Shown: positions 4,414 to 31,579 of the stretch, in pieces | Position numbering within the stretch: the first letter of the stretch is position 1 | Layout: every line of letters begins with the position of its first letter | NCBI GenBank assembly: GCA_016190285.1 | Contig: JACPQW010000188.1 | Coordinates: 1 to 32,941 of the forward strand | Length of the DNA stretch: 32,941 bases | Source: Candidatus Methylomirabilis oxygeniifera | GTDB taxonomy: Bacteria > Methylomirabilota > Methylomirabilia > Methylomirabilales > Methylomirabilaceae | Direction of reading: 5' to 3' | Made by a program: the position numbers and the translations under genes | The notes under the pieces: generated by a model | The model's input: only the letters and a program-made list of their open reading frames with translations | Database searches by the model: none | Told to the model about the DNA's origin: nothing

Positions 4414-5511
4414 ATGGGAACACAGAAGATATTCGGGGTCTTAGAGGGTGGCGGCGTTCGGGGGATCGCGCATGCCGGGGCCTACGAAGCCGTGTCCCGA
4501 ACAGCGCAGTGCGAATTTGCCGGGATTGCCGGCACATCGGCCGGCTCGATTGTGGCCGCCCTCATCGCGGCCGGCGCCAGTCCTGAGTTTATCAAGCAGT
4601 TGCTGCTCTCGACAGATTTTCGAGAATTTCTGGATCCCGAATGCCGCGACGTGAACATCGCGACCGCGAGGACACTCGTGGAGGGCCTGCTCAATGAGGG
4701 CATGCTGGGTCGTGCGATGACGATTACGTTTGCGCTGTTTTCGAACGATTCACTCGTCACGAGACTGATCTCAGGCAATGGCATTCACTCCGGCGCACCT
4801 TTTGTGGCCTGGTTTAGAGGCGCGCTTCAGGACTGTTGCGGCAACGCGGAATTGCGCTTCAGGGATATCGCCGGGAAACACCTGAAGGTCATCGCCACCA
4901 ACCTGACCACCCGATCACTGACCGTCTTCAGCTCGGAACTTACGCCGGACCTCACCTTGTGGGAGGCGGTACGAGCCTCGATCAGCGTTCCTTTTTTCTT
5001 TACGCCGTTTAAGATCGGTTCGGGACTGTTTATCGACGGCGGCCTGTTGAGCAATTGTCCGGTCTGGGTGTTTGATGATGAGCGACACGCGTTCCCCTCT
5101 GCCCCTACCGTGGGATTTCGATTGAGGGAGCCCACTCCACAACCACGGGAGCCTGTAAGTTTTGTCGATTTCGTCTCGTCGTTTTGTGAAACGTTGTGGA
5201 ATACCGCGAGAGACGAGAACGACCTGCGTCAGAACAGGGACATTCCAGCACTCATTATGATTAATCTGCTCGCCGACGAATTGGACTGGCTGGCATTTGA
5301 TATCGACGGCAACACAAAGCAGCAGATTTACGACAACGCGGTCCGCGTCACAGCGGAGGCGCTCAGCCGAGAGTTGCGGCCCGTCGCAAAGGCCTCGAAT
5401 GGGAAGGGTGTCTTCAGGCGGGTCGCCGAGGAGATATTCGTTGTATCACGAATGAACGGACGGTTTCGGAAACGGGGCGAAACGGGAACCGGGTTGTCGC
5501 GCGCTGCGTAG
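4414..5511 (+). CDS. Patatin-like phospholipase
   Basis: VLEGGGVRGIAHAGAYEAV...IAGTSAGSIVAALIAAG (GGGxRG, GxSxG) and FIDGGLLSNCPV (DGG). Confidence 0.9.
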   Translation: MGTQKIFGVLEGGGVRGIAHAGAYEAVSRTAQCEFAGIAGTSAGSIVAALIAAGASPEFIKQLLLSTDFREFLDPECRDVNIATARTLVEGLLNEGMLGRAMTITFALFSNDSLVTRLISGNGIHSGAPFVAWFRGALQDCCGNAELRFRDIAGKHLKVIATNLTTRSLTVFSSELTPDLTLWEAVRASISVPFFFTPFKIGSGLFIDGGLLSNCPVWVFDDERHAFPSAPTVGFRLREPTPQPREPVSFVDFVSSFCETLWNTARDENDLRQNRDIPALIMINLLADELDWLAFDIDGNTKQQIYDNAVRVTAEALSRELRPVAKASNGKGVFRRVAEEIFVVSRMNGRFRKRGETGTGLSRAA

Positions 5512-5590
5512 AGGTTTGTGGAGGGGCACCTCTTACCGAGGGTGCATATCCGTTATAACTCGGCCTCTTGTTTCTCGCCCGGCAAGGGGG

Positions 5591-5652
5591 GCCGGCGCTT
5601 ACAACGCCGTATCCGGAACCGTGCAGTTCGAATTGACCCGGATTGCCGGAAC
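5591..5652 (+). pseudogene. Short diverged duplicate of the patatin 5' region (fragment)
   Basis: Hand alignment with 4474-4535 gives about 49/62 identical bases; translated AGAYNAVSGTVQFELTRIAGT versus AGAYEAVSRTAQCEFAGIAGT; a stop follows a few codons later. Confidence 0.55.
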
Positions 5653-5847
5653 GGTGCAGTAGCAAGGCAATAGTATGGTGTCAGGCTCTTGCCACGCGGC
5701 TCCGGCTGTCTCCGTGGCCTCTCGTTGGTCTTCCTGTCGCGTAAGCCGTTCAAGTTGCTCTCGCGCCTCGTCGATTGACCGCGTGGCGCGGAGGACGTGA
5801 GCAGCCAGGGTCCAGGGTATGGGCCAACTCCTTCCGATCCCCAACAT
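5599..5847 (-). CDS. Possible small hypothetical protein (82 aa)
   Basis: MLGIGRSWPIPWTLAAHVLRATRSIDEAREQLERLTRQEDQREATETAG...; GGAGGA a few nt upstream of the ATG; its C-terminus reads through the patatin-like fragment in antisense. Confidence 0.35.
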   Translation of the reverse strand: MLGIGRSWPIPWTLAAHVLRATRSIDEAREQLERLTRQEDQREATETAGAAWQEPDTILLPCYCTVPAIRVNSNCTVPDTAL

Positions 5848-6040
5848 GGTGAGTCCTCCGCTTCTGAATGAATATGCCGTCCGGTGGTGTGATGATGATC
5901 CTCTCATGCTCTTTACTCATAAAATAAAACGGCATTTGAGAAACAAGAATCGGCGAATATCTGATTTTTGCGTCAGACTACGGATCGATTCCGTGTCGGC
6001 GGTTGGCCTACACGGAGAGCGTCAGGGAAAGCAAAGAGCG

Positions 6041-21603: not shown

Positions 21604-22755
21604 ATGACCAGTTCACAGGGTTTCTGGTCTTACATACACGCTGATGATATAACAGAGTGCGAACGCATCTCCAGGCTGGCGCGAGATGTTGCTGGCCAGT
21701 TCGAGATGCTGACGGGAGAGCCTCTGGCCTTGTTCCCCGATCGGGACGCGATCAAATGGGGTGAGAACTGGCAGAACAAAGTTGACTCCAGTCTCGCCTC
21801 CGTAGCATTCTTCATTCCAGTGTTAACGCCGCGGTTCTTCATGAGTCCGGAGTGCAGGAGAGAATTGCAGTTCTTCGCTCGTAAGGCCACTCAACTGGGA
21901 CTCAAAGAGCTTGTATTGCCGTTGCTCTATGTGGACGTTCCAGCTCTTCATGATGACACGCAACGGGACGACCTTGTTGCGCTCGTCCGCACGTTCCAAT
22001 GGGAAGACTGGCGGGAGTTGCGATTCGCTGATCTGTCAGCAGAAAGTTATCGTAAGGCGGTGGCTCGCCTAGCGGCACGACTCGTGGAAGCTAATAGGCA
22101 GGTCGAAACGGTCGATGTCGCAACCATTGCTCTAGAAGCTGAAGAGGCTACAGTCGGATCTGAGGATGACTCACCTGGGTATCTCGACCGAGTAGCATCA
22201 GCCGAGGACACCCTGCCGAAGCTTGTAGAAACAATCGAGGCGATCGGTCGTGATATCGAGCTGATTGGGCAGACAATGCAGGAAGCGATCGCCGACATTC
22301 AGCGGGGTGCGCCGCAAGCAAAAGGCTTTGCCGCGCGCTTACTAGTTGCCCGTAAAGTTGCACGTCAGCTTGCTGAACCGGCAGATCGTGTGTGGTCGTT
22401 TGGCAATGAATTCGTCTCTCAACTGCATGAGGTTGATCAAGGCTTCCGTGCCATCATTGAACGGGCGGCTTCGGAGGTCCAACAAAATCCAGACTCCAAA
22501 ACGGCAGTCTGCGCCTTTTTTGCCGCGGTTCGCTCCATGTCTACTTCCGCTCATGTTGGACTGGGATCTGCTCAGGGAATGATCGATGCCATCGGCCCTA
22601 TTGAGAAGATGTCAAGAGACTTGCGGCCGGTCCTGAGGCGGCTTCGGCAAGGGTTGACGACAATGGTTGAGGCCAGAGAAGTGAGTGACGAGTGGCTTCA
22701 CCTAATCGAGAGGTCCGGGATTAGCTGCGACGATCGACTGACCGATGCGAGTTGA
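21604..22755 (+). CDS. TIR-domain protein with helical C-terminal extension of unknown function
   Basis: GFWSYIHADD...LTGEPLALFPDRDAIKWGENWQNKVDSSLASVAFFIPVLTPRFFMSPECRRELQFF typical of a bacterial TIR domain; the remaining ~230 aa look helical and are unassigned. Confidence 0.82.
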   Translation: MTSSQGFWSYIHADDITECERISRLARDVAGQFEMLTGEPLALFPDRDAIKWGENWQNKVDSSLASVAFFIPVLTPRFFMSPECRRELQFFARKATQLGLKELVLPLLYVDVPALHDDTQRDDLVALVRTFQWEDWRELRFADLSAESYRKAVARLAARLVEANRQVETVDVATIALEAEEATVGSEDDSPGYLDRVASAEDTLPKLVETIEAIGRDIELIGQTMQEAIADIQRGAPQAKGFAARLLVARKVARQLAEPADRVWSFGNEFVSQLHEVDQGFRAIIERAASEVQQNPDSKTAVCAFFAAVRSMSTSAHVGLGSAQGMIDAIGPIEKMSRDLRPVLRRLRQGLTTMVEAREVSDEWLHLIERSGISCDDRLTDAS

Positions 22756-22774
22756 ACCTTGCCGCTCAAGACTG

Positions 22775-22828
22775 CGCTGGAGCGGACGCCAGCGTCTGCT
22801 ACACGCGGCGCTGCGGCTTGGCAGCCGC
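22775..22828. promoter_or_regulatory. Two consecutive hairpins in the leader upstream of the restriction gene
   Basis: CGCTGG-agcggacg-CCAGCG (22775-22794) and GCGGCT-tggc-AGCCGC followed by TTTCT (22813-22828). Confidence 0.4.
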
Positions 22829-22965
22829 TTTCTGTCCGGTGCGTCACACCTGGCATAACGCGGCTGCAGCAGTCAGTCGTCCACACGAGCACGCTCGCGC
22901 ATCCGTCCGCCGCTGACTCGCAGCCCGTCGGCTCAATTAAGAGACAAACCGAAATTTTATTTGCC

Positions 22966-23703
22966 ATGCCTATGAAACAGGATGATATGCTGCGAGACCT
23001 GCCGGCGCGTGCCGGTCGTGCGGTGGCCCATTACTGGGCAACCAGGGCTGCCCAACGCGACAGACAGAAGCAGACCGGAAAGGCCGACCAGGGGCTACGT
23101 AGCGCTGTGACCGGCGGTGCGCAGATGGATGGATTCATTGACCTCTTCACCGAACTCATCACGGCCGCCGGGATACCCGCGCAGTACGTCTTTCGGAGCA
23201 AGAACGTTGAGCTGCCGGGATTCTTCCGTCCCACAAAGGAATGGGACCTGCTCGTCATCCGCGAGAACACGCTTCTCGTTGCCATCGAAGCCAAGTCACA
23301 GGTCGGACCGTCGTTCGGCAACAACTTCAACAATCGAACCGAAGAGGCGATGGGCAGCGCGCTCGACCTCTGGACCGCGTATCGGGAACACGCCTACCTC
23401 GCAAGCCCTCAACCGTTCCTCGGCTACTTCTTTATGCTGGAAGACTGCGATGCATCCAACAGCCCGGTAAAAGTGCGGGAACCGCACTTTAAGGTCTTCC
23501 CGGAGTTTGTCGGCGCGTCGTATCGCCGTCGGTACGAACTCTTCTGCCGAAAGCTTGTTCTTGAGCGATACTACACAACATCAGCGTTCATCACCTCGAC
23601 GGTTGGAGACGGGAGCAGGGGTCTGTTTTCGACGCCGGCGGACGACCTCTCGATCGAGCGCTTTGCCAAGATTCTTGTCGGCCATGTGGCAGCCTTTGTG
23701 TGA
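22966..23703 (+). CDS. XhoI/PaeR7I-family type II restriction endonuclease
   Basis: RAVAHYWATRAAQ...AVTGGAQMDGFIDLFTELI...VELPGFFRPTKEWDLLVIRENTLLVAIEAKSQVGPSFGNNFNNRTEEAMGSALDLWTAYRE...EPHFKVFPEFVGASYRRRYELFCRKLVLERYY resembles the family as I know it; D...ExK motif present. Confidence 0.82.
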   Translation: MPMKQDDMLRDLPARAGRAVAHYWATRAAQRDRQKQTGKADQGLRSAVTGGAQMDGFIDLFTELITAAGIPAQYVFRSKNVELPGFFRPTKEWDLLVIRENTLLVAIEAKSQVGPSFGNNFNNRTEEAMGSALDLWTAYREHAYLASPQPFLGYFFMLEDCDASNSPVKVREPHFKVFPEFVGASYRRRYELFCRKLVLERYYTTSAFITSTVGDGSRGLFSTPADDLSIERFAKILVGHVAAFV

Positions 23704-23707
23704 ACAG

Positions 23708-24616
23708 ATGGGAATAACGACGCACAGGCTGATCCACGGGGATTCGCGGGATCTCTCGTTCCTGCCGGACGCCTCAGTCCATCTCGTAGTGACTTCACCG
23801 CCGTATTGGAATCTCAAGCGGTATAACGAAAACCCAGACCAGCTTGGGCACATTCAGGATTACGAAGCATTCCTGTTTGAGTTGGAGAAGGTATGGCGGC
23901 ATGTCTATCGAATTCTCGTGCCCGGCGGTCGTTTAGTCTGCGTGGTCGGAGACGTGTGCGTTGCGCGGCGCGATTTTGGCCGGCACCTGGTGTTTCCGCT
24001 GCACGCCGATATTTGCGTCGTGTGTCGGCGGATCGGATTTGACAACTTAAACCCCATCATCTGGCACAAGATCGCTAATGCTTCCTATGAAGTCGAGAAC
24101 GGGTCCAAGTTTCTTGGGAAGCCTTACGAGCCGAACGCCATCATTAAGAATGATATGGAATTCATCCTGATGCAGCGAAAACCCGGCGGGTACAGGAAGC
24201 CAACGAATAAGCAGCGCGATATGAGCCGCATTGATAAAGATGAGTTTAACCGATGGTTCCAGCAGATATGGACGATCCCAGGTGCTTCGACTAAACGGCA
24301 TCCCGCACCGTTCCCATTGGAACTTGCCACTCGTCTGATTCGTATGTTCTCCTTCACTGGCGACACCGTATTAGATCCTTTTTGCGGTTCCGGGACTACA
24401 ATGGTTGCGGCTCTGCGGATAGGCCGAAACAGCATCGGTGTCGAGATCGATCCGGAGTATTGCCGAATGGCGGCACGCTACCTCAAAGCTGAGGCCAGCG
24501 ATCTTTTCTCGACCGTCACGCTCCTGTTTGAAAAGATGGCTACCGAAACAGCGAGCCTGGTAAAGGAGGATCGAGCCCTGCATGAAGTTCGGCCAGCCAG
24601 GAAAAAACTTGGATAG
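23708..24616 (+). CDS. DNA methyltransferase (SPPY type, likely N4-cytosine or N6-adenine)
   Basis: VVTSPPYWNLKRY (motif IV) N-terminal to DTVLDPFCGSGTTMVAALRIGRNSIGVEID (motif I). An alternative in-frame ATG at 23684 overlaps the upstream gene. Confidence 0.9.
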   Translation: MGITTHRLIHGDSRDLSFLPDASVHLVVTSPPYWNLKRYNENPDQLGHIQDYEAFLFELEKVWRHVYRILVPGGRLVCVVGDVCVARRDFGRHLVFPLHADICVVCRRIGFDNLNPIIWHKIANASYEVENGSKFLGKPYEPNAIIKNDMEFILMQRKPGGYRKPTNKQRDMSRIDKDEFNRWFQQIWTIPGASTKRHPAPFPLELATRLIRMFSFTGDTVLDPFCGSGTTMVAALRIGRNSIGVEIDPEYCRMAARYLKAEASDLFSTVTLLFEKMATETASLVKEDRALHEVRPARKKLG

Positions 24617-25163: not shown

Positions 25164-27824
25164 ATGAATCACCTTCATCAGCGTCTCGCCCAGCGAGTGG
25201 ACCAATGGCGAGCAGACGGGTATCCTCTCCCGCAATATCCGGTACTTGCTGAGATTCTCGAGTGGGCGCGCGAGGGCGAGACCGAAACCCTTCGTTTTCT
25301 GCGCCGCCCGCAGCTTCACGCCCTGGAAACCTACTGGTATCTTCGGCTTGTCGAAGGGACACCGCACATCTTCGATCTCTATTGCAAGGTCTACCCACCT
25401 GATGAAAACCTTGCTGAATTATTAGAATCCCTGGGCGTCCCGGACAGCGCTTTCAAGGCAGCAAATTACAAGGCCGATGCGCTCTGGGCGCAGATCAAAA
25501 CAGACGGTAGATTTGTCCAAGATTTCAAGCTTGAATCGCTTCGCGAGACGCTCAGCCTTGATTACCCGAGCTACATCCTTGCCCTGGCGATGGGGGCCGG
25601 TAAGACCATTCTTATCGGCGCGATCATCGCGACCGAGTTCGCGATGGCGCTGGAATACCCCAATGACCCTGGTGCCCCGTTCGTTCAGAACGCCCTTGTC
25701 TTCGCACCAGGCAAGACAATCCTCGAATCGCTGCGCGAGCTGGCCGAGATCCCATACGAGCACATCTTGCCGCCACGCTTACACAAAGGCTTCGCCGCCT
25801 CGGTGAAGCTCACCTTCACCCGTGACGGTGAGAAAGACGTACCGGTCATCCGTGGCAGCCTCTTCAACGTTGTCGTGACCAATACCGAAAAGATCAGAAT
25901 TCAGAAAGAGACGATTCGCAAGGCCGACCTCGGCAACCTCTTTGCGCCGGGACGGGAGGACGAGGCCCGCGCCGAAATTGCCAACCTGCGCCTTCAGGCG
26001 ATTGCCAGCCTGCCTCATCTCGCTGTCTTCTCGGATGAGGCGCACCACACGTATGGACAGTCGCTCGACACCGGACTCAAGAAGGTCCGCAAGACGGTGG
26101 ACTACCTAGCCGCCAAGACCAACTTAGTCTGTGTGGTCAATACCACCGGCACCCCCTACTTCCAGCGGCAGTCGTTAAAGGATGTTGTCATCTGGTATGG
26201 CCTGTCCGCCGGCATCAAAGATGGCATTCTCAAAGATCTGGCGGGCAACATCCACGCCTACGATTTCTCGGGGGACGCCAAAACGTACGTCTCACACGTC
26301 ATCGAGGATTTCTTTCGAGACTACGGCGTCGTGCGTCTGCCGAACGGCGCCCCCGCGAAGCTGGCGCTCTATTTCCCCCAGACCGATGATCTCAAGGAAC
26401 TCAAGCCGGTCATCGACCAGGCGCTAGTAAAGATGCGCCAAAGTCCCACGCTCTGCCTCGTCAACACCTCCGACGAGAGCCTGACCAAACAGGCTGACAT
26501 CGACGCCTTCAACCGGCTGAACGATCCCACTGCCCCGCATCGGGTAATCCTGCTGGTGAACAAAGGGACAGAGGGGTGGAACTGCCCGAGTCTGTTTGCC
26601 TGCGCGCTCGCCCGCAAGCTTAAGACCTCGAACAACTTCGTCCTCCAGGCGACCACCCGCTGCCTCCGCCAGGTCCCAGGTAACGGCGTCAAGGCCCGCG
26701 TCTATCTCTCCATGGACAACTTCAGCGTCCTCGATCGGCAGTTGCAGGAAACCTATGGTGAAACCATCGCCGACCTCAACCGGTCCGGACAGGAAACCCG
26801 TAGCGCTCGCATCATCCTTCGCAAGCTCGATCTACCGCCACTCGTCGTCCCGCAGATGGTCAGCACTGTCGTCAAGAAAGAGGGCGCGACCATGCGGCTG
26901 CGCCTGGAGCGGCCAGCATACAGCGCGGACGGGCAGGTCAAAAAGACCGTCCATACGCTGGCAGACCAGCAGGCTACCGTAAGCGTCTTGCGCCAAGTCG
27001 GTGACACAGTAACCATTGACGCTATCCCAGAAGTGACCGACGCTTACGCCGCCGCAGTAGACCTCGCCGCACGCTACCGGCTTGACCTGTGGGTGATTTA
27101 CGATGAGCTTCGTCGCGTGTATGGTGAAGAGGACATCCCTTTATCCCATATTGACGATCTTGCCACTCAGATCGAAGAACAGACGCGCTGTTATGAAATC
27201 CAGAAGGAGAGGGTAGACGTCGCGCTGGCGCTGGTGAAGCCAGAAGGGTTCCTCAAGGAAACGGACGCATCCGGTGTGGACGTCTATACGGCCGACATTG
27301 TGTACCCCAAGGATCGTGAATACCTCCTGTTCTCACTGGAGCAGATGAGGGGCCAGAACCCGTGCGACTTCGGCTTCCACTATACCCCGTATAACTTTGA
27401 TTCCAACCCCGAGAAGAGCTTCTTCGAGCAGATGCTCGCGAACTTGAACCTCCATCCATCCGAAGTAGAGGACATATACTTCACGGGGGCACTTACCGAT
27501 CCGAACAAAACCGACTTCTTTGTTGAATACAAAGATGATAAGGGAAAGTGGCGTCGCTACACGCCAGACTTCATCATTCGCAAGAAGCCGAAAAGAGACG
27601 GGCGGCCTGGGACTGGCAAGGTCTTCATCGTGGAGATCAAGCGTGAACACGATCGCGCCCACCCGGTGGATGGCGAACATGGTAAGAAGGCCATGGCCCT
27701 TCGCAGATGGGAAACACTCAACCCCAACCGCCTCAAGTACCAGATGATCTTCACCGCCACTGACGCCGTACCAGCCGACGAGATGAGGGTTGTGCGTAGG
27801 TTCGTCGAGGAGCCCTGCACATGA
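25164..27824 (+). CDS. res: Type III-like restriction subunit (Res): SF2 helicase plus C-terminal PD-(D/E)xK-like region
   Basis: Walker A ALAMGAGKTILIGAII; DEAH box VFSDEAHHTYGQ; C-terminal TPDFIIRKKPKRDGRPGTGKVFIVEIKRE. Confidence 0.88.
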   Translation: MNHLHQRLAQRVDQWRADGYPLPQYPVLAEILEWAREGETETLRFLRRPQLHALETYWYLRLVEGTPHIFDLYCKVYPPDENLAELLESLGVPDSAFKAANYKADALWAQIKTDGRFVQDFKLESLRETLSLDYPSYILALAMGAGKTILIGAIIATEFAMALEYPNDPGAPFVQNALVFAPGKTILESLRELAEIPYEHILPPRLHKGFAASVKLTFTRDGEKDVPVIRGSLFNVVVTNTEKIRIQKETIRKADLGNLFAPGREDEARAEIANLRLQAIASLPHLAVFSDEAHHTYGQSLDTGLKKVRKTVDYLAAKTNLVCVVNTTGTPYFQRQSLKDVVIWYGLSAGIKDGILKDLAGNIHAYDFSGDAKTYVSHVIEDFFRDYGVVRLPNGAPAKLALYFPQTDDLKELKPVIDQALVKMRQSPTLCLVNTSDESLTKQADIDAFNRLNDPTAPHRVILLVNKGTEGWNCPSLFACALARKLKTSNNFVLQATTRCLRQVPGNGVKARVYLSMDNFSVLDRQLQETYGETIADLNRSGQETRSARIILRKLDLPPLVVPQMVSTVVKKEGATMRLRLERPAYSADGQVKKTVHTLADQQATVSVLRQVGDTVTIDAIPEVTDAYAAAVDLAARYRLDLWVIYDELRRVYGEEDIPLSHIDDLATQIEEQTRCYEIQKERVDVALALVKPEGFLKETDASGVDVYTADIVYPKDREYLLFSLEQMRGQNPCDFGFHYTPYNFDSNPEKSFFEQMLANLNLHPSEVEDIYFTGALTDPNKTDFFVEYKDDKGKWRRYTPDFIIRKKPKRDGRPGTGKVFIVEIKREHDRAHPVDGEHGKKAMALRRWETLNPNRLKYQMIFTATDAVPADEMRVVRRFVEEPCT

Positions 27825-28123
27825 GCCCCAAAATCCCGATCGACCGCAATAAGATCGCTGACTTCTGCCATCGCTGGAAAATCACCGAGTTCGCCCTCTT
27901 CGGCTCCGTGCTTCGCGACGACTTCCGCCCCGACAGCGACGTGGACGTGTTGGTGACATTTGCTCCAGATGCCCAGTGGAGTCTATTTGATCTGGTCGAG
28001 ATACAAGAAGCGCTGAGTGAGATACTGGGTCGGAAGGTTGATCTTATTGAGAAAAGAGGCCTTCGTAATCCATTCCGGCGTTATGAGATCCTGAGGACGA
28101 AGGAGGTGGTCTATGCCGCGTGA
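27821..28123 (+). CDS. mntA: MNT-type nucleotidyltransferase antitoxin (MntA-like)
   Basis: FALFGSVLRDDFRPDSDVDVLVTF (GSx10DxD). ATG overlaps the res stop (ATGA). Confidence 0.87.
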   Translation: MSPKIPIDRNKIADFCHRWKITEFALFGSVLRDDFRPDSDVDVLVTFAPDAQWSLFDLVEIQEALSEILGRKVDLIEKRGLRNPFRRYEILRTKEVVYAA

Positions 28124-28475
28124 AAGCCGCGACCCCGCCTACCTCTGGGACATGCTGGAGGCCGCGAAAACGATCCTGGATTTTACTCGAGATGTTACGC
28201 CTGAGCAGTATCGCGCCGACTTGAAACTCCGTCTGGCTGTTGAGCGTGAGATCGGCATCATCGGCGAGGCAGCTCGACGAGTGAGCGGCCCTTTCCAGAG
28301 CGCTCACCCTGAGATCCCGTGGCAGAAGATCATTGCTCAAAGAAACGTGATGATACACGAGTACGGCGATGTCGACCACGAGCGCATCTGGCAACTCGTT
28401 ATCGTCTACATCCCACGTTTGATTGAGCAACTGACACCGCTGATCCCGGCCATTCCCGAGGAGCCGAAAGAATGA
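28113..28475 (+). CDS. hepT: HEPN toxin (HepT-like, DUF86)
   Basis: LAVEREIGIIGEAARRVS...IPWQKIIAQRNVMIHEYGDVD; RX4HXY motif RNVMIHEY. Overlaps mntA by 11 nt. Confidence 0.88.
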   Translation: MPRESRDPAYLWDMLEAAKTILDFTRDVTPEQYRADLKLRLAVEREIGIIGEAARRVSGPFQSAHPEIPWQKIIAQRNVMIHEYGDVDHERIWQLVIVYIPRLIEQLTPLIPAIPEEPKE

Positions 28476-30586
28476 GCAAGACCGACCCAACGAAAAACAC
28501 TCCGGCTCGCGCGACAAAGAAGGTGCCACTCGAGTCAGCCGCACTCAAGCAGACCGAGGTCAAGATCACGCCTGCCAAGGGTCGGCCGATGCTCACCTGG
28601 GTGGGGAAGCGGCCGCTGTCGAACGTCACGGCCTTCCCGGCCCAGCATGTGGAGACCTTCGCACCGCCCCAATCCGCAATCGCCAACCCGAAATCGGACA
28701 TCTGGCATGACTGGCCAGCGGCCTACCCCAAGGGCGGCCTCCTCTTCCATGGCGACAACAAAGAGGTGTTGGCGCACCTGCTCGCCAACGGCTTCCGCGG
28801 CAAGGTGAACCTGATCTACATCGACCCGCCCTTCGACTCCGGAGCCGATTATGTTCGTAAAGTCTCCCTACGCGGCGTCAAGGGCACCGCGAAGATCGAC
28901 GGCGAGAGCTACACGCTTGGAGAGCAGATCCAGTACACCGACATCTGGGCCAACGACAATTACCTCCAGTTTATGTACGAGCGGTTACTGCTGCTGAAGG
29001 AGCTACTGCATCCCAACGGAACAATTTGGTTGCATTGCGATTACCACAAGGGCCATTTTCTGCGCAATCTTATGGACGAGGTTTATGGTTCTGCTTCCTT
29101 TAAAAATGAGATCATTTGGCAACGCTCATCGGCCCATAGTGATGCGTCAACGTTCTCAAACCTCCACGACATCTTGTACTACTACGCACTTGGTGACGAA
29201 TTCACTTTTAACAAGCAGTTTGTTGAGCATGACGAGAAGTACATCACATCCCATTATCGTTACGTTGACGAGCGTGGGCGGAGATATAGGACCGATAATC
29301 TGACTGCAACTGGTTTGAAGGGCCAAGGATATGAATACGAGTGGAACGGAGTCAGGCGAATCTGGCGGTGTCCACAGGAAACTATGAAGAAACTTCACGA
29401 AGAAGGCCGAATCCAGTACACGAGGAACAGAGTCGCGGAGTATGTCAGGTACTTGGATGAAATGAGTGGAACCGCTTTGCCAGACCTATGGACGGACATT
29501 TTACCCGTCAACTCACAGGCTGCTGAACGTCTTGATTTTGCGACCCAAAAGCCAGAGGACCTACTCAGTCGGATCATAGAAGCCTCGTCTAATCCCGGAG
29601 ACCTCGTCCTCGACTGCTTTCTTGGCTCTGGCACTACGGCTGCTGTGGCGCAGAAATTGGGACGCCGCTGGATCGGCTGCGACCTCAACAAAGGAGCGAT
29701 CCAGACAACAGCCAAGCGGCTGCAAACGATTATTCGCCAACAGATCGAGGCCGGGCAGAAAAACCCCCTCACCCTCGCCCTCTCCCACGATGGGGAGAGG
29801 GGAAAGGACGTGGGTCCGGCGCAAGTCGCGTTCGCTGTCTGGCGCGTCAACGACTACGACCTCGCGATCCAGCACAACGAGGCCGTCAATCTGGCCTGCG
29901 AGCACATCGGTATCCAGCGGACTCGCACCGATGCTTACTTCGACGGCACGCTGGGTCAACCCCTCGTCAAGATCATTCCCTTCGGCCATCCCCTTACACC
30001 GCTGGATCTGGAGGAACTCAAGCGGGAACTGGAGGCCAGGCCAGAAGAAGACCGACCCATCACCCTCGTCTGTTTAGGCATGGAACTTGCCGCCAAGACT
30101 TGGATCGAGGACTGGAACAGGCTCCGCAAACGCAAGAAGGATGAATACCTACATAAGCCGGAGGTCAACAGGATTGACGTCATAGAGCTTCGCACCGACC
30201 CCAAATACGGCAAATTTATCCGGCACGAGCCGGCTACGGCGAAGGTCAAGATCACTTGTGTAGGGGCGCCGCTCGCTGCGCCCAAGATCGTCGTCGAGAT
30301 AGAAGACTTCATCTCGCCGACGATCATCGAACGGCTGGATCAGCAGGCAGGAATGCTCAAGCCAACGATCGATGACTGGCGGGCGATGGTGGACTGCGTG
30401 ATGATCGACCCGGCCTACGATGGGCAGGTCTTCAACGTAGCTCTCGCTGACGTGCCGGAGAAGAAGACTGACTTGGTCGTGGGACGGTACGAACTTGCCG
30501 CCCCAAGCGCCGAAACCACCGTCGCCATCAAGATCATCGACATGCTAGGCGAAGAAGTCCTCGTCACTCGGTTGGTAAAGGAATAG
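28472..30586 (+). CDS. mod: Type III-like DNA methyltransferase (Mod), adenine-specific
   Basis: VNLIYIDPPFDSGADYV (motif IV DPPF), TIWLHCDYHKGHFLRNLMDEVYG, LVLDCFLGSGTTAAVAQKLGRRWIGCDLNKGAI (motif I). Start overlaps the hepT stop (ATGA). Confidence 0.92.
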   Translation: MSKTDPTKNTPARATKKVPLESAALKQTEVKITPAKGRPMLTWVGKRPLSNVTAFPAQHVETFAPPQSAIANPKSDIWHDWPAAYPKGGLLFHGDNKEVLAHLLANGFRGKVNLIYIDPPFDSGADYVRKVSLRGVKGTAKIDGESYTLGEQIQYTDIWANDNYLQFMYERLLLLKELLHPNGTIWLHCDYHKGHFLRNLMDEVYGSASFKNEIIWQRSSAHSDASTFSNLHDILYYYALGDEFTFNKQFVEHDEKYITSHYRYVDERGRRYRTDNLTATGLKGQGYEYEWNGVRRIWRCPQETMKKLHEEGRIQYTRNRVAEYVRYLDEMSGTALPDLWTDILPVNSQAAERLDFATQKPEDLLSRIIEASSNPGDLVLDCFLGSGTTAAVAQKLGRRWIGCDLNKGAIQTTAKRLQTIIRQQIEAGQKNPLTLALSHDGERGKDVGPAQVAFAVWRVNDYDLAIQHNEAVNLACEHIGIQRTRTDAYFDGTLGQPLVKIIPFGHPLTPLDLEELKRELEARPEEDRPITLVCLGMELAAKTWIEDWNRLRKRKKDEYLHKPEVNRIDVIELRTDPKYGKFIRHEPATAKVKITCVGAPLAAPKIVVEIEDFISPTIIERLDQQAGMLKPTIDDWRAMVDCVMIDPAYDGQVFNVALADVPEKKTDLVVGRYELAAPSAETTVAIKIIDMLGEEVLVTRLVKE
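28667..28699 (+). repeat. Dispersed-repeat-like segment in frame in the Mod N-terminus
   Basis: CCCCAATCCGCAATCGCCAACCCGAAATCGGAC, translated PPQSAIANPKSD; internal CAATCCG/CAATCGCC-like iteration. Confidence 0.55.
29763..29808 (+). repeat. Palindromic repeat-like segment in frame inside mod
   Basis: CCCCCTCACCCTCGCCCTCTCCCacgaTGGGGAGAGGGGAAAGG, translated PLTLALSHDGERGK; inverted arms CCCTCTCCC/GGGGAGAGGG. Confidence 0.75.
30261..30283 (+). repeat. Short palindromic repeat-like segment in frame inside mod
   Basis: TAGGGGCGCCGCTCGCTGCGCCC, translated VGAPLAAP; arms GGGCGC/GCGCCC. Confidence 0.5.
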
Positions 30587-30640
30587 GGGACCACGTGCTG
30601 GCGAGCGACTGGAGTCACTAATGGAGATTGAGGTGATATT

Positions 30641-31579
30641 GTGAGCAAGGGTGATTCAGCGAACCCTGACCTGGACTGTTTCGGCGTCCTCAACCGGCGA
30701 TGGACTATTGAGTTCGACGGAGGGAGCATTTCACCGGTTTCAGAGTTCGATGAAGTCACCGCTTGGGTCGATTCTTACACGAACCAGGATGGGTTTCTAT
30801 ACCCTCCAATGTCCCGTCAGGTCGTGTCGGACCCTAGAACAAATGAGGTAGTGGAGGAGGTGCCGAAAACGATACGTCCTGCGCTTCTCCACCAACTTCC
30901 GGCCTCCCATACGCTTCGCCTTTCCGACTCTGGTACGAGAGAGCAGCGTCGTCAGGGCATTGGCGCTTTCGTTATTCACCTGCTCGGGTACCTGTTTGGG
31001 ACTAGGCTCCAATTCTGGGACTGGTGGTTCGATAGCCGCGTGCCGATTCAATCAACTCACAACATCAGCTTTCGTGAGGCGACCGCCCAGGACTTCCTCT
31101 CGCATTGCTGCCGGACTTGGAGAAGTTGGACCGATGAAGAACGGCGGCTTATTACAAACGCGCTCTACATGCACTGTCGAGCGCCCTCGTATGAGTGGGA
31201 CTGGGAGCGGTTCACCATCGAGTACATGGTACTTGACGGCTGCTGGAAGCTCGCCAAGCTCAGATATGGGGTTAAAGATGAAGGCCACGCAAGGCGAATA
31301 GATAGCCTTTGTCGCAAGTTCGGCATTCCCTCAGATGGTAATCTTGTTGAGGCAATCGTGCGCTTGAGAAACGGCCTCTTCCACGAGGCGCTTTGGGACG
31401 GCTCGCAACCTTGCATGGGCACCAGCGGCACCACTTTTCTCCAGTCATATAACCTCCGCAGATTGAACCAGCGCTTAATTCCAGCTCTCCTCGAATACGC
31501 GACGCCTTATGTCGGGACCTGTTGGTGGTCGATAGGCACATTTGCCTTCAATTCACCATCAAGGCACGTCAACCCGTAG
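30641..31579 (+). CDS. Putative HEPN-domain protein of unknown family
   Basis: GTG start preceded by GAGGTGAT; C-terminal VRLRNGLFHEALWDG contains RX4H (RNGLFH) in a helical context; the N-terminal region is unassigned. Confidence 0.6.
   Translation: MSKGDSANPDLDCFGVLNRRWTIEFDGGSISPVSEFDEVTAWVDSYTNQDGFLYPPMSRQVVSDPRTNEVVEEVPKTIRPALLHQLPASHTLRLSDSGTREQRRQGIGAFVIHLLGYLFGTRLQFWDWWFDSRVPIQSTHNISFREATAQDFLSHCCRTWRSWTDEERRLITNALYMHCRAPSYEWDWERFTIEYMVLDGCWKLAKLRYGVKDEGHARRIDSLCRKFGIPSDGNLVEAIVRLRNGLFHEALWDGSQPCMGTSGTTFLQSYNLRRLNQRLIPALLEYATPYVGTCWWSIGTFAFNSPSRHVNP

Follow-up and report, generated by a model that had tools for sequence, protein, structure and literature searches.

The 312 amino acid protein encoded at positions 30,641-31,579 of the window (the whole 32,941-nucleotide stretch of Candidatus Methylomirabilis oxygeniifera DNA that was analysed) is a member of the HEPN family, as is well supported by an invariant arginine and histidine and by a helical domain that matches HEPN structures. 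With a probability of about two in three, it is a portable, two-domain HEPN ribonuclease that works as a defence effector and, in this genome, provides a second line behind restriction. The family is new, but it belongs to a well-known kind, the HEPN effectors of defence loci, some of them tied to restriction-modification (R-M) systems, and does not represent a novel type of system; links to R-M systems have been described for at least 16 HEPN clades (PMC3710099). Its relatives include PHROG 5937, a widespread unknown gene of the P2 defence hotspot, for which a predicted fold, a likely catalytic site and a function that can be tested are thereby supplied, together with a link to R-M loci of phyla that have been little studied.

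The gene and its surroundings

The gene lies on the forward strand, begins with GTG and has homologues elsewhere. Three nucleotides before the start codon is a Shine-Dalgarno sequence, GAGGTGAT (30,630-30,637, +), complementary to the 3' end of 16S rRNA. Directly upstream on the same strand, and ending 54 nt before the GTG, is the gene for a type III-like DNA methyltransferase, Mod (28,472-30,586, +; PF01555, 3.6e-46; PADLOC models MTase_III and MTase_II). The first-pass annotation, made from the letters of the sequence, had thus placed the 312-aa reading frame correctly with respect to mod, and its remark on a strong ribosome-binding site was also sound. Preceding mod in the same orientation are genes for a Res-like helicase/nuclease subunit with a TnsA-like C-terminal stretch (25,164-27,824, +; weak PF04851 and PF08722, partial NF046055), an MntA-like nucleotidyltransferase antitoxin (27,821-28,123, +; PF01909/PF18765, with NF047752 below its cut-off) and a HepT RNase toxin, the first HEPN protein of the locus (28,113-28,475, +; PF01934, 6e-23). 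A terminator-like or promoter-like site was looked for in the gap between mod and the 312-aa gene and none was found, so that co-transcription of the two is possible. Farther upstream, at 21,604-24,616 of the window, lies a defence island encoding a TIR-domain protein (FxsC-like), an XhoI-type restriction endonuclease (PF04555, 6e-91) and an N6/N4 methyltransferase.

The conserved motif and the predicted fold

The protein had been described at the outset as a putative HEPN protein of unrecognised family, and the second half of that description was borne out when searches of Pfam, NCBIfam, PADLOC and the PDB sequences gave no match. When its relatives were scanned against Pfam, NCBIfam and PADLOC, no member matched any curated HEPN profile; many HEPN families were first recognised only through profile-profile searches (PMC3710099). 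The only profile that does match the 312-aa protein is PHROG 5937 (E 1.1e-9), which is listed as of unknown function.

The predicted RNase active-site motif, RNGLFH (R243-N244-x3-H248; 31,367-31,384, +), lies toward the C-terminus as originally noted, at residues 243-248, about 78% of the way along the protein. It has the form of the HEPN catalytic motif, Rx4-6H, in which the R is typically followed by N (PMC3710099), or otherwise usually by D or H. By itself, an Rx4H motif is at chance level and is weak evidence for HEPN: the protein has 28 arginines, 9 histidines and four Rx4-6H matches, and at least one such match is present in 93% of shuffled 312-aa sequences (10% for the R[NDH]xxxH form). 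RNGLFH is meaningful because it is conserved among the homologues, not because it is merely there. When 22 members were aligned (median pairwise identity 22%), the only invariant residues were H90, D199, H216, R243 and H248, and N244 and R219 were each kept in 21 of the 22; conservation of the R and the H had been named beforehand as a point on which the HEPN claim might fail, and both are present in all 22. H90, D199 and H216 are just as invariant as the R243/H248 pair. In a partial planctomycete homologue (L004), outside the 22-member alignment, the motif H is replaced by N.

The AlphaFold2 model of the full-length protein (pTM 0.79) has a confidently all-helical C-terminal domain, residues 146-283 (31,076-31,489, +), which when modelled alone reached a pLDDT of 86.7 and a pTM of 0.83; as modelled, it is consistent with the helical bundle of the HEPN superfamily. 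The comparison with HEPN folds that had been proposed as a check gave a uniform answer: the top 11 Foldseek matches of this domain in the PDB are all HEPN structures, with 2hsb first (probability 0.97) and again first when the full-length model was used; HEPN-MNT toxins, AbiV (9bj5) and the HEPN domain of human sacsin are among the matches of the C-terminal domain. The E-values of these HEPN matches are all above 0.1 and none is significant, so that the fold assignment rests on the consistency of the matches together with the motif. Aligning to the local HepT and HEPN-T families with hhalign likewise gave no significant match, the best one to HepT falling on the RNxxxH helix, and no significant match was found in the BFVD viral structure library. 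Taken with the invariant R and H and the nearly invariant N, the HEPN-only best matches of the helical domain support the original HEPN claim.

The N-terminal domain, about residues 1-140 (30,641-31,060, +), is of mixed beta/alpha character in the AlphaFold2 secondary structure and carries the invariant H90. These ~140 residues show no resemblance to anything searched; possibly, they form the sensor or regulatory part of the protein.

Distribution of the family

Chromosomal homologues are found in Nitrospirota (45-52% identity), Chromatiales, a deltaproteobacterial MAG, a planctomycete, a gemmatimonadete and Thioploca, and, among 95 genomes of the phylum searched, one further genome from the window's genus has a divergent copy (25%). 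More distant homologues (22-28%) are carried by P2-like phages, and by plasmids from Providencia, Burkholderia and Acinetobacter. Those on viral contigs were found with an alignment as query, a single-protein query having found nothing. ORF313 of P2-EC67 (PHROG 5937; CAJ43160.1, E. coli WP_001161210.1) is equal in size to the window protein and homologous to it over most of its length, with 25-26% identity by tblastn and the RNxxxHE motif common to both; the members of PHROG 5937 differ in being solo prophage genes with no R-M partner, and their identity to the window protein is just 22-26%.

In the 36 viral loci, the portal gene gpQ lies upstream in 32 and gpA downstream in 32, both being present in 30; most of the loci that lack this pair of flanks are interrupted by contig ends. 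This cos-proximal gpQ-gpA locus of P2, the home of old and tin, is a reservoir of anti-phage systems (PMC9122126; PMC9519451). The family gene is present in 97 of 5,426 complete E. coli genomes, always on the chromosome and usually in single copy; three of the four E. coli loci opened are flanked by portal and replication-endonuclease genes and the other lies in a prophage remnant. At the plasmid loci opened, the gene has no evident partner. The family is thus a portable single gene, carried on its own by P2 prophages and by plasmids, and its E. coli homologues offer an inexpensive route to testing its function. A search of the literature for P2-EC67 ORF313, CAJ43160, WP_001161210 and phrog_5937, supplements not covered, turned up no relevant study; the family is described as previously unnamed, with the 169 curated P2-hotspot systems (PMC9122126) and the PD- systems (PMC9519451) lying outside the comparison.

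Restriction-modification genes beside the homologues

The two closest homologues of the window protein, at loci L086 (52%) and L087 (49%), both lie 3' of Eco57I-type (type IIG) R-M genes. That of L086 overlaps the stop of the R-M gene by 8 nt, and that of L087 is the third gene of an operon-like run of type IIG R-M, unknown and HEPN genes. In L003, the homologue (40%) stands behind an HsdR-like gene and an HsdM-HsdS fusion (type I-like), with a 300-nt gap. The homologue in L089 is head-to-head with a ResIII/SNF2 helicase gene that includes a NOV_C domain, and two Nitrospira homologues overlap a SNF2-helicase gene, the helicase of L001 having a SWIM domain. Those of L019, L083, L084, L088 and L025 are solitary or close to PIN toxins, and for L019, L083, L088 and L025 R-M genes are nowhere close.

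Overall, among the 13 chromosomal loci for which enough upstream sequence was available, 4 have a same-strand R-M gene preceding the homologue. If our own estimate holds that about 0.5% of genes would lie behind an R-M gene by chance (Eco57I-type matches number a few per Nitrospirota genome), this is far above expectation, although the loci are not wholly independent of one another and were counted post hoc. Descent of the R-M linkage from a single event was considered but is not favoured: about four changes are needed on a weakly supported tree, and the R-M label is not significantly clustered, so that gain or loss on several occasions is no less likely. The recurrent pairing with unrelated R-M types makes this family a well-defined setting in which to ask if restriction is monitored by HEPN proteins.

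These neighbours raise the question of whether the R-M proteins themselves might bind and silence the HEPN RNase, which would then be freed by anti-restriction or by loss of R-M activity, in the manner of PrrC and EcoprrI. There is a precedent (PMC3710099), both of the closest homologues are R-M-linked, and the gene is adjacent to, or in an operon with, several R-M types in the window, L086, L087 and L003. We nonetheless consider this rather improbable, since the phage, plasmid and several of the chromosomal homologues have no R-M partner, the partners that do occur are mutually unrelated (types I, IIG and III), which makes one common inhibitory contact hard to picture, and the gene is absent from the nearest relatives of the window's type III operon.

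Two features of the type IIG loci may be recorded here. The 1317-aa R-M protein of L086 (8,671-12,624, -) has an extra Fic/DOC domain near its C-terminus and its gene is immediately followed by that of the HEPN homologue, placing restriction, Fic and HEPN functions within one two-gene unit. In L087, a 356-aa protein of no known family (4,811-5,881, -) is encoded between the type IIG R-M gene, which its gene overlaps by 4 nt, and the HEPN homologue.

Proposed function

As an effector, the protein would probably use its C-terminal HEPN domain as a dimeric, metal-independent ribonuclease, acting through R243-N244-x3-H248, while the N-terminal ~140 residues would probably keep it inactive until a signal derived from the phage or the infection is received. 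In the window, the gene would have been added behind mod as the last gene of the type III R-M and MntA-HepT locus. A phage that had got past restriction would then, most likely, set off cutting of the target RNA and so growth arrest or cell death, as a second-line defence. That it is an infection-responsive effector, as had been suggested, is plausible, judging from its residence in the P2 hotspot and its adjacency to R-M genes. HEPN-R-M linkage is an established pattern for which PrrC is the model, and the analogy suggests that triggering may come upon failure of restriction (PMC3710099). It is also conceivable, though on the whole unlikely, that we are dealing with a new HEPN RNase family that has its own N-terminal sensor and serves as a universal back-up for restriction; one gene would repeatedly join R-M systems of types I, IIG and III and be released upon inhibition of restriction, while the prophage versions would sense the phage directly.

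With PrrC, the EcoprrI-linked HEPN anticodon nuclease, the window protein has in common the HEPN motif, the R-M-linked gene and the proposed second-line role (PMC3710099), but it has no ABC-ATPase domain and no sequence match to PrrC; where PrrC and RloC have an N-terminal ABC-ATPase, it has an N-terminus of ~140 aa in which no ATPase profile was detected. ApeA and AbiJ are similar in combining an effector-like HEPN C-terminus with an additional N-terminal domain, and AbiV through structure 9bj5; however, the ApeA/AbiV/AbiJ-type Pfam profiles found no match among 18 members of the family (for the ApeA type, none at E<=1), and ApeA-NTD1 is about 300 aa long (PMC3710099), against about 140 aa for the N-terminus here. 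HepT, from the same operon, also has the RNxxxH motif, and HEPN toxin structures match the model of the window protein, but the two differ in length (120 vs 312 aa) and in how the motif ends, with HEY in HepT and HEA in the window protein. HepT toxins have an RX4HXY motif, the tyrosine of which is the residue for control by MntA. The 312-aa protein, with RNGLFHEA, has no Y two residues after the motif H, so that such control is not expected; the MntA of the locus is, moreover, already paired with HepT, and the protein does not qualify as a MntA-HepT (type VII TA) toxin.

RNase activity is here a prediction, and the HEPN superfamily includes members that have lost catalysis (PMC3710099); the protein might accordingly be a HEPN-fold RNA binder or regulator of expression with no nuclease function, as has been proposed for MtlR. 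This seems very improbable, since the R and H are invariant among divergent members and the family is found in defence hotspots; HEPN families predicted to be non-catalytic usually lose the motif (PMC3710099).

Relation to the type III operon

The first-pass annotation had envisaged a five-gene type III system with the 312-aa protein as its added effector. Seven other genomes of the phylum proved to encode relatives of Res, and five of the regions were opened (L078-L082). In L078, from the same genus and with a Res 83% identical to that of the window, the order is res-mod-trypsin-like peptidase-MntA-HepT, and the operon ends at the same crtC-like neighbour as the window operon. The order in L079-L081 is res-MNT-HEPN-mod, with an MNT-HEPN pair different from that of the window, and an MNT match occupies this position in L082 as well. 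No homologue of the 312-aa gene is present in L078, L080 or L082, each of which has sequence beyond mod, nor in L079 or L081, where the sequence ends inside mod and soon after it, respectively. The gene following mod is variable: a trypsin-like peptidase in L078, an SDR oxidoreductase in L080 and a DUF433/PIN-like pair in L081. Co-occurrence with type III mod had been put forward as a check, but no other homologue found lies beside such a gene; they are instead solo or next to type I or IIG systems. Since the related operons carry MNT-HEPN pairs and not the 312-aa gene, the pairs are a recurrent companion and the gene a local addition. The idea of a fixed fifth gene was therefore rejected, given its absence from the relatives of the Res/Mod operon. 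That the protein is a dedicated fifth subunit of the type III R-M/MntA-HepT system, for which the shared strand, the short gap, the good Shine-Dalgarno sequence and the finding of no terminator between the genes might speak, is hardly likely at all in the face of operons (L078, L080, L082) that have MNT or MNT-HEPN genes and no homologue, of the changing gene after mod and of the want of any other type III neighbour.

The MNT-HEPN pair itself varies in both placement and family. MntA-HepT lies between res and mod in the window and after mod in L078; in L079-L081, a different pair, MNT/HEPN-T, separates res from mod. In L078, the most closely related operon, the trypsin-like peptidase (PF13365; 7,194-8,102, +) fills the slot after mod that is held in the window by the HEPN gene, and is possibly an R-M accessory.
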